Position numbers and translations under genes: made by a program. The notes below the pieces were generated by a model that saw only the letters and a list, made by a program, of their open reading frames with translations, had not been told where the DNA came from and did not search any database. Shown here in pieces: positions 10,025-35,045 of a stretch of 37,617 nucleotides of DNA. The stretch comes from an uncultured Bacteroidales bacterium. GTDB taxonomy: Bacteria > Bacteroidota > Bacteroidia > Bacteroidales > UBA932. The DNA is taken from assembly GCA_900320365.1 (NCBI GenBank), contig ONSC01000006.1, positions 23,913-61,529 of the forward strand, read 5' to 3'. Each line of letters opens with the position of its first letter. Position 1 is the stretch's first letter.

Positions 10025-10951
10025 CTACAAAGCTGAGAGCCTCGCCTGTGCCGAGGCTTTTTCCATTTCGTCCGGAGTCACCTTGATCAGCATCGGAAGG
10101 TACTTCTTCTCGAGCTTTGCGTTTTTGTCGTTACGAGCCAGGAGAACACAATTCTTGATGGTGGCATAGTCATCTGGATGCTTTTTCAGGACCTTGTTGT
10201 ACATCTTTAGGGCGTTCTTGCTGTCCTTTTTGTAGACAAGGTAGTAGGAGCCGATGTTAGTCATGTACTGTATGGCGTCCGGATAGTACGAGAGCATCCT
10301 CTCGGAGAGTTCCTTGAAAGCCTCATAAGAGGTAGGAGTTCCGATCTTGTAAAACGCGAAGCAGCAATCCTGCATCACCGCTGGGAAGAGATCCTTGTCA
10401 GAAACGAGCCCGGGATACTCCCATGTCGGATGACCATGGCCGTCGTAATCTATCAATGACCTGAGGGTCTCCAGAGCCATGTCTGGGCTGTCTTTCTCAT
10501 AATCGAGCAGAGCGGAGATTTTGAACGCCCTCAGGTCCAAACGGTTCTGGTTCAGCTCAATAGCCTTATCAATCGCCTGGGTGGCCTTACCGAAAAGCTC
10601 GTCATCGAAACTTGAGATAATGAAGTAGTTCACATCATTTCCGAGCGAATCCTTCAAAGACAGTGAAGGGGCCTCTCCAAGATAACGGTTCCCTTCCTTC
10701 TGCTCAATACTCTCGGAGCGGCTCTTAGTATAATAATATGTGAACTTCCCCAGAAGCATGTCCAAATCGTCGGGATAATCCTTCTCCCACTTCTGAAGAT
10801 GGGTCTCAATGCCCACACCCGCGACTCCCAGTTTGGAGACCAAAAGGTTATAACGATCGAGATAATCCTTCTGGGAAGGTTTCACCTGGGCGGCCAAAGG
10901 AAGGGCGAAGACGACCGTGACTAAGGCCAAAAGTAATTTCCTCATATTCAT
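10025..10951 (-). CDS. Exported tetratricopeptide-repeat protein
   Basis: 308 residues from the ATG whose first bases overlap the rsmF stop (ATGA). The frame extends 15 codons upstream, but the chosen start puts the signal peptide (MNMRKLLLALVTVVFALPLAAQ) at the N-terminus. The mature part is helical, with TPR-like units near 100-200 and a clear one around 210-270 (YYLVYKKDSKNALKMYNKVLKKHP). TPR proteins are scaffolds for protein contacts; this one probably works in the periplasm. It is the last gene of the pyrE-SRPBCC-rsmF-TPR unit. Its coding end carries a terminator hairpin serving the opposite strand. No enzymatic motif was seen. Confidence 0.8.
   Translation of the reverse strand: MNMRKLLLALVTVVFALPLAAQVKPSQKDYLDRYNLLVSKLGVAGVGIETHLQKWEKDYPDDLDMLLGKFTYYYTKSRSESIEQKEGNRYLGEAPSLSLKDSLGNDVNYFIISSFDDELFGKATQAIDKAIELNQNRLDLRAFKISALLDYEKDSPDMALETLRSLIDYDGHGHPTWEYPGLVSDKDLFPAVMQDCCFAFYKIGTPTSYEAFKELSERMLSYYPDAIQYMTNIGSYYLVYKKDSKNALKMYNKVLKKHPDDYATIKNCVLLARNDKNAKLEKKYLPMLIKVTPDEMEKASAQARLSAL
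10038..10062 (+). terminator. Intrinsic terminator lying within the end of the convergent TPR gene
   Basis: A 7-bp perfect stem (AGCCTCG / CGAGGCT, 10038-10044 and 10052-10058) with a 7-base loop is followed by a run of T. It would end plus-strand transcription 25 bp past the small unknown gene, while also encoding the C-terminus of the minus-strand TPR protein. Confidence 0.5.
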
Positions 10952-12297
10952 AAATCTATTCTTATTCTTCTTTCTAGTGGGTGTAGATTGTTCCACCTTC
11001 TACCAATATTCTTAACAAAGCCGAGGGGATGCCCCTCATGGCAAACTATCAAGTAACCTTCAGGTTGTCCTTCAATGAATATGCCGTCCCGGTGGAGATA
11101 CCTCAATGAGGTCTCCTTGTCCAGCTCCACCGCCGGATATTTGTCAAGCGGCGGTTCGATGCTGAGGGCCCAGTCGGACGAAGGCACGAAATCCCGTCCC
11201 TTGGCGATTCCCTTCTCAAGGCCGTTCCGCAAAGGCTTGAGAATGTCAATTCCTTGGCGGGTAGTCCCGGCCGGAGAAGTCTTCTCAAGAATAGATACGA
11301 ACTGTCCCTCCCCTTTCACGAATCCCGGAACAAGCTGGCCACCAGTCCTTGTCTTAATCACTCCCGGAAGGCTTGAATATTCATAATCAATTATTTCCGC
11401 TCCAAGTTCCTCAGCAGTCCACTCGACATTGGAGTCATTTTCGGCCTCCTCGAAAGTGCAGGTTGAGTAGATCAGCAGGCCTCCCTTCTTGAGGCTAGGC
11501 CACGCGTCAGCGAGAATCCTTTTCTGGCGGGCGGCGCATAGGTCAACCGCCTCCGGGGACCAGTCTTCAACCGCCTTGGGATCTTTACGGAACATCCCTT
11601 CGCCTGAGCAAGGGACATCGGCTACTATTATGTCGAAATACCCTTCCAATACGGCGAAGGCTTTAGGGTCACGGGAAGTCACGACCACATTGGGATCACC
11701 CCATATCGCCACATTGTCGGCCAGAATGGATGCCCTGTTTCTCATGACTTCATTCGCTACCAGCTGGAATGAGTCGCCGAATCGTTCCCGCAGTGAGGTT
11801 GAGATATCTGTCGTCTTGCCTCCGGGGGCGGCGCATAGATCCAGCACCCGGATAGGCCTTCCAAGGGCCTCGAAACGGGTTAAATGCTCCCTGAGGATGT
11901 GGCCGACGATCATGGCTGATGAGTCCTGGACATAATAGCATCCAGCGTGGAACAAAGGGTCCATCACGAACCTCGGCCGCTCCGCCAACATCACCCCATA
12001 CTGGTTCCACGGCACCTTCTCGCAGGTCTCGTCTTCCCAGAAGGGCCTTAGGGGCTCGACCGCCTCGCTTCGCTCGGCCCCACCGTTCGCTTCGCTCACG
12101 GTCCCCCCTCTTAACGTGCCGAGGGTGGCAGTGGTCTCGTCCCCTAAGCCCTTCTGGAAAGACAAAAGCTTGAAGGGGTTAAGGCGGATGGATACTGAGG
12201 GGGGAAGGGAAAAGGCTTCGAAGGCGACACGGGCTTTCTCCGGCCCGACCGCCCTGGAAAGGATGTCCATCAAGACCCTGTCCTCGATTCCCTCCAT
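10948..12297 (-). CDS. rsmF: RsmF/YebU-like rRNA (cytosine-C5) methyltransferase with in-frame repeat insertion
   Basis: 449 residues. It is a SAM-dependent methyltransferase of the NOL1/NOP2/Sun type, with SAM motif DLCAAPGGKT at 153-162, motif IV DVPCSGEGMF, and motif VI STCTF with the catalytic Cys. A C-terminal RNA-binding (PUA/FAU-like) segment ends in GFVKNIGRRWNNLHP. It should methylate a 16S or 23S rRNA cytosine; whether it acts as RsmF or a related enzyme is inferred. Between SIRLNPFK and the conserved VPWN segment lie about 45 extra residues. Residues 53-82 of these are encoded by an 87-bp repeat that also occurs in ispH, here read in the opposite direction. The ATG is six bases after the SRPBCC stop. 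The insertion sits before the catalytic domain, so activity is probably kept. Confidence 0.88.
   Translation of the reverse strand: MEGIEDRVLMDILSRAVGPEKARVAFEAFSLPPSVSIRLNPFKLLSFQKGLGDETTATLGTLRGGTVSEANGGAERSEAVEPLRPFWEDETCEKVPWNQYGVMLAERPRFVMDPLFHAGCYYVQDSSAMIVGHILREHLTRFEALGRPIRVLDLCAAPGGKTTDISTSLRERFGDSFQLVANEVMRNRASILADNVAIWGDPNVVVTSRDPKAFAVLEGYFDIIVADVPCSGEGMFRKDPKAVEDWSPEAVDLCAARQKRILADAWPSLKKGGLLIYSTCTFEEAENDSNVEWTAEELGAEIIDYEYSSLPGVIKTRTGGQLVPGFVKGEGQFVSILEKTSPAGTTRQGIDILKPLRNGLEKGIAKGRDFVPSSDWALSIEPPLDKYPAVELDKETSLRYLHRDGIFIEGQPEGYLIVCHEGHPLGFVKNIGRRWNNLHPLERRIRIDL
12031..12163. repeat. In-frame palindromic element copy 1 (inside rsmF)
   Basis: The core 12053-12139 (87 bp) matches 34395-34490 in ispH at about 83 of 87 aligned bases. 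The one length difference is a 9-bp gap. The core lies between inverted arms 12031-12054 and 12141-12163, which match for about 22 bases with one gap (CCCCTAAG, CCCTTCTGG and AAGAC in each arm). The element is free of stops in the reading frame used and encodes rsmF residues about 46-89. Relative to the host gene it has the opposite orientation to the ispH copy. Confidence 0.8.
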
Positions 12298-33324: not shown

Positions 33325-34011
33325 ATGAACATACCTGACATTATCATAGCCATTGACGGCTACTCCTCAACCGGAAAAAGCACGCTCGCGAAATTGATAG
33401 CCGAGCAATATTCATTCCTATATCTGGACTCCGGAGCGATGTATCGCGGAGTTACCCTCCACGCCCTCGAGAACGGGATCATTGACGGGTCCGGAACCAT
33501 CGATGAGGCTCGCCTCAAAACCGCCCTGGAAACCCTCGATCTCGATTTCCGGATTGACGGGACATACATCGGGGACCGCCGTGTCGAACAAGAGATCCGC
33601 ACGCTTGAGGTCTCCAGCCACGTCAGCCCGATCTCCGCTATTCCTTTTGTCAGAGTCTTTGTGGATGAGAAGCTCCACGCTTTCGGACAACGCAAAAGGG
33701 TTGTCATGGACGGCCGCGACATAGGCACCACGGTATTTCCAAACGCCGAAGTCAAGATATTCATGACCGCCACAGCTGAGGTCAGAGCACAAAGACGTTT
33801 CGATGAGATGAAAGCCAAGGGGCAGGAGCCGGTCATGGAAGAGGTCATGAAGAACCTCCTTGAGAGGGATTACATCGATTCCCACAGGGAAGTCTCTCCC
33901 CTTTCCCGTGCCGCCGATGCTTATGTCCTGGACAATTCTGACATGACACTCCACGAGGAGACCGTCTGGTTCCAGGGACTCTGCCAAGGCAAGTTCGGGA
34001 TTCTGGAATAA
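33325..34011 (+). CDS. cmk: (d)CMP kinase
   Basis: 228 residues. It phosphorylates CMP and dCMP. Walker A is GYSSTGKSTLAK (residues 12-23), here with Tyr-Ser-Ser in place of the common GPAGSGKS. YLDSGAMYRGVTLHALENG, VVMDGRDIGTTVFPNAEVK and the C-terminal ERDYIDSHREVSPLSRAADA are diagnostic. The length is normal. It shares one base with the ispH start (TAATG), so cmk and ispH form a pair. It is divergent from the response regulator. Confidence 0.95.
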   Translation: MNIPDIIIAIDGYSSTGKSTLAKLIAEQYSFLYLDSGAMYRGVTLHALENGIIDGSGTIDEARLKTALETLDLDFRIDGTYIGDRRVEQEIRTLEVSSHVSPISAIPFVRVFVDEKLHAFGQRKRVVMDGRDIGTTVFPNAEVKIFMTATAEVRAQRRFDEMKAKGQEPVMEEVMKNLLERDYIDSHREVSPLSRAADAYVLDNSDMTLHEETVWFQGLCQGKFGILE

Positions 34012-35045
34012 TGGCTCTCACTGTCGAGATAGACAAGCGTTCCGGTTTCTGTGGCGGGGTGATCCGCGCCATCAGCAAGGCCGAGGAGTTCCTGGACTCA
34101 CATCCCGGGAATAAGCTTTATTCCCTCGGTGCGATAGTCCACAATGAGGCCGAACTTGAAAGACTTGGCCGGAAGGGACTCGTGACAATCGGCCATGACG
34201 ACATTGGTAATATTCAATCACCTGATAATGAGACGGTTCTGATTCGGGCACATGGCGAGCCGCCATCCACTTATAAGCTCACCCGAGAGGCGGGGATCAA
34301 CCTCATAGATTGCACCTGCCCTGTCGTCCTGAAACTCCAGAAAGACATCCGGGAAGTTTATTCACGCCTCAATGGCGGCGTGGCCCGCACCAGCGGCTCG
34401 ACCGCCTCGCTTCGCTCGGCCCCACCGCTCGCTTCGCAAAGCGAAGCTCCGGTCCCCCCTCTTAACGTGCCGAGGGTGGCAGTGGTCTCGCCATCTGGAC
34501 AGGCCACGCCGCCGAGAGGGCAGATCATCATCTATGGGAAGATCGGTCATGCGGAGGTGCTGGGGCTGCTGGGACAGGTAGGCGGCGACGCAGTTGTGAT
34601 TGAGGACATGAAGATGCTGCTTTCAGCGCTGGAGTCCGGGACTATCAGGACGGATGTCCCGCTGGAGATATTCTCACAGACAACAAAGAGTCCGACCGAA
34701 TATTCCGAGATCTGCTCTGTCTTGTCCGAGAGAGCCAAGGCCAGACTGACCGTCCACAACACGATTTGCAAACAGGTCGCATCAAGACATGAGGAACTCG
34801 CCGAGTTCGCCTCATCACATGACATAATCATTTTTGTGTCAGGAGTTTCCAGCTCCAACGGAAAAGTCCTCTGCGACCTTTGCCGCTCCAGGAATCCCAG
34901 AACCTATCACATCTCAGACCCGAAGGAGATAGACCCCTCCTGGTTCGGTCCAGATGAAAGCGTTGGTGTGTGTGGCGCCACCTCCACCCCCCATTGGCTT
35001 CTAGAGGAAGTCGCCACCGCAGTAGCCGACCTCACTCTCAATTAA
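34011..35045 (+). CDS. ispH: 4-hydroxy-3-methylbut-2-enyl diphosphate reductase with in-frame repeat insertion
   Basis: 344 residues. It makes IPP and DMAPP in the last MEP-pathway step with a [4Fe-4S] cluster. Cluster and active-site motifs are GFCGGV (C14), AHGEPP (H81), DCTCPVV (C103), TVHNTICKQ and the C-terminal VCGATSTPHW. Between the CPVVLKLQ region and IIIYGKIGHAEVLG lie about 46 residues (124-169) with no counterpart in the family. Residues 129-160 are encoded by the repeat shared with rsmF. Without the insert the protein would be about 298 residues, the normal size. The insert falls in a loop between two strands, so the fold may tolerate it. Confidence 0.93.
   Translation: MALTVEIDKRSGFCGGVIRAISKAEEFLDSHPGNKLYSLGAIVHNEAELERLGRKGLVTIGHDDIGNIQSPDNETVLIRAHGEPPSTYKLTREAGINLIDCTCPVVLKLQKDIREVYSRLNGGVARTSGSTASLRSAPPLASQSEAPVPPLNVPRVAVVSPSGQATPPRGQIIIYGKIGHAEVLGLLGQVGGDAVVIEDMKMLLSALESGTIRTDVPLEIFSQTTKSPTEYSEICSVLSERAKARLTVHNTICKQVASRHEELAEFASSHDIIIFVSGVSSSNGKVLCDLCRSRNPRTYHISDPKEIDPSWFGPDESVGVCGATSTPHWLLEEVATAVADLTLN
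34374..34513. repeat. In-frame palindromic element copy 2 (inside ispH)
   Basis: A 140-bp segment bounded by perfect 12-bp inverted repeats GGCGGCGTGGCC (34374-34385) and GGCCACGCCGCC (34502-34513). The core 34395-34490 (96 bp) matches 12053-12139 in rsmF apart from a 9-bp insertion and a few mismatches. The extra bases complete an internal hairpin GCTTCGC-AAA-GCGAAGC (34431-34447). It is read without stops and both copies keep the host frame. Confidence 0.85.

Follow-up and report, generated by a model that had tools for sequence, protein, structure and literature searches.

How can one repeat sit in two unrelated genes of a single bacterium and keep an open frame in both, once on each strand? 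The question arises in a 37,617-nt stretch of DNA, called the window here, from an uncultured Bacteroidales bacterium of UBA932 (GCA_900320365.1, contig ONSC01000006.1, positions 23,913-61,529 of the forward strand). An initial annotation had proposed that an rsmF gene and an ispH gene in this window have in common a repeat of 87 and 96 bp, inserted in frame and in opposite coding orientations. NCBIfam and Pfam recognised the two products as RsmF and IspH, and the repeat was present where it had been placed (Table 1). The two copies align with 85 identical bases, against about 83 claimed, a single mismatch and gaps at 11 positions; an additional stretch in the middle hairpin of the ispH copy accounts for 10 of these gaps; a 36-nt segment was identical in both (mean of 0.00 matches in shuffles). 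As the annotation also held, rsmF and ispH read opposite strands of the element, both readings are stop-free, and the two strands encode unrelated peptides. Its borders were right in location and wrong in extent: the 87- and 96-bp stretches are only the centre of a larger insertion of 135 nt, closed by a locus-specific stem. The arms, the larger insert, the structure of the core and the changes of orientation reported below go beyond what had been described. From sequence comparison, we consider it probable (about 0.75) that the repeat forms the middle of a palindromic insertion of ~135 bp, likely a non-autonomous mobile element, which lies in frame in rsmF, ispH and many other Bacteroidales genes in either orientation.

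Table 1. Element-related features of the rsmF and ispH loci, in window coordinates.
Feature	Position	Strand	Remark
rsmF-like gene, element in N-terminal part	10948..12297	-	
rsmF whole predicted hairpin, arms and core	12031..12163	-	RNAfold; element strand is the coding strand
rsmF exact arm CCAGAAGGGC	12037..12046	.	pairs with 12148-12157
rsmF exact arm GCCCTTCTGG	12148..12157	.	pairs with 12037-12046
rsmF core as first noted	12053..12139	-	
rsmF conserved CCACCCTCGGCACGTTAAGAGGG, likely pseudoknot	12106..12128	-	
ispH gene, element-bearing	34011..35045	+	
ispH whole predicted hairpin	34374..34513	-	RNAfold; element strand opposite to the coding strand
ispH exact arm GGCGGCGTGGCC	34374..34385	.	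pairs with 34502-34513
ispH exact arm GGCCACGCCGCC	34502..34513	.	pairs with 34374-34385
ispH core as first noted	34395..34490	-	
ispH conserved CCACCCTCGGCACGTTAAGAGGG, likely pseudoknot	34457..34479	-	

The length of the insertion was read from empty orthologues in other genomes (one genome per species). The source ispH is 135 nt longer than the ispH genes of G033 and G020, and two relatives, G066 and G114 (copy L211), have rsmF genes 135 nt longer than that of G300. In ispH of G066, 24 extra nucleotides are an in-frame remnant of one arm. The empty-site scan scored two candidates per genome, and the empty sites are therefore a sample. In rsmF of L211, GTCGGACC flanks the insert on both sides and the empty G300 gene has a single GTCAGACC, which we read from these sequences as a clean 8-bp target duplication; the sides of the G066 rsmF insert are ATCAGACC and GTCTGACC. 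The duplication was clear at this one locus, and elsewhere the flanks of empty sites were too diverged for comparison. Nothing at rsmF supported an origin of the arms from a pre-existing palindrome or an inverted copy of the target: in G300, the empty site has no inner arms. More diverged relatives served for comparison at L006 and L014 and gave no support either.

When the window proteins were aligned with 35 IspH and 44 RsmF homologues, the site held the element in either orientation or nothing, and further states were a reading in the third frame (P0132, P0134), a partial deletion (P0020) and an arm scar (P0010 and others). Classified by peptide motif, the 120 RsmF proteins listed comprised 21 in the minus and 10 in the plus orientation, 2 in the third frame and 87 without the motif; of the 120 IspH proteins listed, 11 were minus and 4 plus, and the other 105 had no motif. 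Maintenance of the reading frame would fit peptides that belong to an old protein domain, yet the two strands yield unrelated peptides, one RsmF site uses a third frame and close homologues are without the insert. Relatives are empty, scarred or oppositely oriented, so the insert is not ancestral, and this explanation is almost certainly wrong. Assembly error, the other objection that the annotation had anticipated, is argued against by the recurrence of the copy at the same place in sequences from other species' genomes. Two RsmF homologues (P0136, P0141) have far longer, apparently compound insertions at the same site.

Copies of the element are dispersed. The core pattern matched 22 times in the source genome, and the reversed pattern not once. 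Of 61 genomes searched, 18 matched, comprising 18 of the 37 in the genus (source included) and none of the 24 outside it; in a larger draw from the genus, 164 of 300 genomes carried at least one copy. The pattern occurred in at least 119 GTDB contig stretches; 116 of the 119 matches listed were titled Bacteroidales or Bacteroidia, the other three being Gemmatimonadetes, Arthrobacter and Labilithrix, and many of the stretches listed came from ruminant stomachs. Of 393 genomes from the order, at least 6 matched a covariance model, a lower bound given that the search, with at most 11 candidates per genome and strict filters, returned 11 source-genome copies against 22 by pattern. Outside the genus, the core pattern was present in G424 (same family) and in G476 and G506 (two other families), and was not present in the covariance matches of G326 and G666. 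No match to the element was found in the plasmid sequences searched, none of three pattern matches in viral contigs had the remainder of the element, and at 10 loci Rfam gave no match above the gathering score (two had E up to 1, both far below that score).

We next consider the arms. In the source genome, exact inverted repeats of 9-23 bp enclose 21 of 22 copies, and their sequence differs from copy to copy. Across the 254 collected copies, 231 had an exact inverted repeat of at least 9 bp, compared with 144 of 2000 draws in which arms of different copies were paired, a control that may itself pair orthologous copies; the 23 copies without such a repeat include L011. This count left out copies lying <90 or <230 nt from a sequence end, while the three collected copies in other phyla (L134, L224, L237), which are chance matches, were kept; L211 and L289 (both G114), whose contigs are equal in length and sequence, were counted once. 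Where two copies in one genome had identical 23-nt cores (244 pairs), their 5' arms had a mean identity of 0.98 beside the core, falling through 0.55 and 0.36 to about 0.25 beyond 35 nt. Eight aligned copies of G476 at different places all have the core and arms of ~20 bp in common, which indicates that arms are able to travel, and three copies of G506 are alike in their inner arms and unlike in their outer arms.

When 14 copies were folded as RNA, the long closing stem formed in all of them; about half had three separate hairpins inside it, and the rest had other inner folds. In L019, L302, L307 and L328 the middle hairpin is bigger by an extra palindrome, like GAGACAACAAGTTGTCTC in three of them, as if the loop had been invaded. 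The opening part of the core is compatible with an H-type pseudoknot, [NNNRGCC]ACCCTC[GGCYNNN]TAAGAGGG. Its CCCTC/GAGGG loop helix was invariant in 50 diverse copies, and invariance by itself carries no information on pairing. At stem column pair 15-28, 22 of these copies had UA, 18 GC, 7 AU and 1 UG, and 2 were unpaired; pairs 12-31, 13-30 and 14-29 were unpaired in 13/50, 21/50 and 24/45, respectively. The covariation score of the stem (0.188 versus 0.076) and its share of paired cells (89.9% versus 82.8%) were each reached by none of 500 shuffles, and the 55 distinct stem types contained 123 paired positions (shuffled mean 93, maximum 120; 2000 shuffles). Double-change pairs and pair types in the stem were not above shuffles (500 and 410 of 500). 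RNAalifold, which is blind to pseudoknots, placed these CCCTC/GAGGG pairs in a nested helix. The invariant loop helix and a stem that covaries in part suggest a pseudoknot in the core, which we regard as likely, not proven. Invariant and covarying positions are also what a structured RNA serving a cellular function, held in place by selection and not mobile, would display; such a function seems very improbable for copies that occupy spacers as well as unrelated genes, lie on either strand relative to the host gene, and are present or absent between close species.

Orientation varied at orthologous sites. Copies at matching sites formed 145 pairs in 41 groups, 80 with the same orientation and 65 with the opposite one; these pairs are not events, and the paired sites may lie up to 40 bp apart. 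The core was inverted between identical arms in rsmF (source versus G017, G066, G073, G114 and L226), in L009/L149 and in L012/L344. At L005/L321, L012/L315 and L015/L336 the two sets of arms were unrelated, and some changes of orientation may accordingly be second insertions. L015, in the source genome, and L336, in G320, have flanks that are 98-99% identical, and their arms, core and orientation are all unlike. Six orthologous rsmF copies showed outermost arm bases that vary by species and are complementary in five of six, one of them with a mismatch; in the remaining copy, L211, a direct repeat takes the place of complementary outermost bases.

It is possible, though on balance unlikely, that the differences in orientation and arms arose by repeated independent insertion at preferred spots, and not by inversion and arm rewriting in place. 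The three pairs with unrelated arm sets, among them L015/L336 with its near-identical flanks, are what this account expects. The rsmF copies, L009/L149 and L012/L344 speak against it, as separate insertions would not have locus-specific arms in common around an inverted core. It has been previously reported that template switching homogenises arms and inverts spacers (PMC8604942) and that it creates and maintains stems (PMC8794818). By analogy, we infer that template switching may have caused the arm and orientation changes seen here.

What we observed comprises dispersed copies in open reading frames, with a conserved core and complementary arms specific to the locus, together with sites that are empty, sites that keep an in-frame scar and single sites occupied in both orientations. 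For the mobile insertion favoured here, we propose that an enzyme acting in trans would copy the core and inner arms into new sites; template switching during replication at each site would then make the outer arms match and invert the spacer; and selection would retain those in-frame insertions that are read as a harmless disordered loop. A more radical and rather doubtful proposal is a new class of mobile DNA in which only the pseudoknot core is conserved: it would move as a folded single strand, and fold-back copying would rebuild its terminal inverted repeats at each site, giving ends that differ, flips in place and removable 45-residue insertions in core enzymes.

A search of Y1 families for an enzyme yielded four Y1_Tnp matches in the source genome, divergent RAYT-like Y1 proteins of 306-345 residues (C173, C115, C32, C34). 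Mobilisation of the element, as a REP-like palindrome, by these RAYT-type Y1 transposases would agree with the greater frequency of RAYT-A in element-bearing than in element-free genomes (124/164 versus 52/136) and with the same trend for strong RAYT-B matches (98/164 versus 23/136), both counted with shared ancestry ignored. However, two Y1 families show a like association in counts uncorrected for kinship, 40 element-bearing genomes are without RAYT-A, and a copy lies within 1.5 kb at only 2 of 20 RAYT-A loci; one further source-genome copy is ~2.2 kb away. The target duplication at one rsmF copy also fits poorly, as Y1 enzymes are not known to produce one. We therefore did not accept RAYT as the mobilising enzyme, and hold this origin to be rather unlikely.

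The element was also compared with known systems. REP elements typically lie near a RAYT gene, and REP palindromes are reported to measure 20-40 bp. Like the present element, REP/REPIN systems consist of palindromes scattered over genomes in which RAYT-like Y1 proteins are also encoded; the insertions here, at 135 nt, are much longer, combine a conserved core with variable ends, often lie in genes and have the scant RAYT linkage given above. Prokaryotic MITEs are likewise small and gene-less, with terminal inverted repeats; of the target duplication that they also have, a clear 8 bp was seen here in one rsmF copy, the flanks at other empty sites being too diverged for a reading. Unlike MITEs, the element is GC-rich, often within genes, and without family-wide terminal inverted repeats, the 5' arm identity of genus copies dropping to chance while the eight G476 copies are alike. 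Mitochondrial byp elements are structured inserts in coding genes, as is this one, but here the frame is kept across the insert and nothing indicates ribosomal bypassing.

The closest likeness is to Rickettsia palindromic elements (RPE), which the initial annotation had invoked. According to a review, RPE are palindromic, about 150 bp long, present in many copies and often inserted in frame in unrelated genes (PMC10969869), and the palindromic, in-frame insertions into unrelated coding genes found here bear out that comparison. The present element differs in its phylum, in having both orientations at one site, in arms that vary by locus and in a likely pseudoknot core, and none of the matches listed among the at least 119 pattern stretches was from Rickettsia. 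Judged by description, it appears to work like an RPE, and we do not classify it as one. No description of this family was found in the literature searched, which took in few subscription papers, so that its absence from print is unproven. In-frame colonisation of coding genes by palindromic DNA would thereby have a second example, distant from Rickettsia and in a lineage for which hundreds of species have been sequenced. Because one gene can be found without the element, with it, with it inverted or with a scar, it becomes directly testable how a protein responds to an abrupt 45-residue insertion, how such elements choose their sites, and whether the ends of mobile DNA are built and renewed by template switching.

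Of the 237 copies tested (out of 254), 143 fell within frames that run for 250 codons or more with no stop, mostly one frame per strand; the 143 include the chance match L224, and some frames may be antisense or fortuitous. Copies with the standard core used the three frames of the element strand 50, 15 and 0 times and those of the other strand 47, 8 and 8 times, the third element-strand frame being closed by a conserved TAA. Pfam domains named the nine hosts tested: RsmF, LytB/IspH, 2-oxoacid dehydrogenase E2, MatE, a citrate lyase ligase-CitG fusion, GHMP kinase, RrnaAD, a Methyltransf_4 protein and a family 3 glycosidase. In an AlphaFold2 model of IspH, the insert falls between a helix that ends at residue 120 and a strand that begins at 171; residues 124-149 and 151-166 have pLDDT <50 in an otherwise confident model, which is weak evidence of disorder because few aligned homologues have the insert. 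The element is predicted to add a flexible loop of ~45 amino acids to its host proteins. In addition, the rsmA orthologue of G066 (L254) has a different short palindrome-like stretch, GATTCTTCGCTTCGCTCAGAATGACA, where the rsmA element sits, and the citrate lyase ligase-CitG fusion gene at L010 (an 803-codon frame) contains two elements in opposite orientations.
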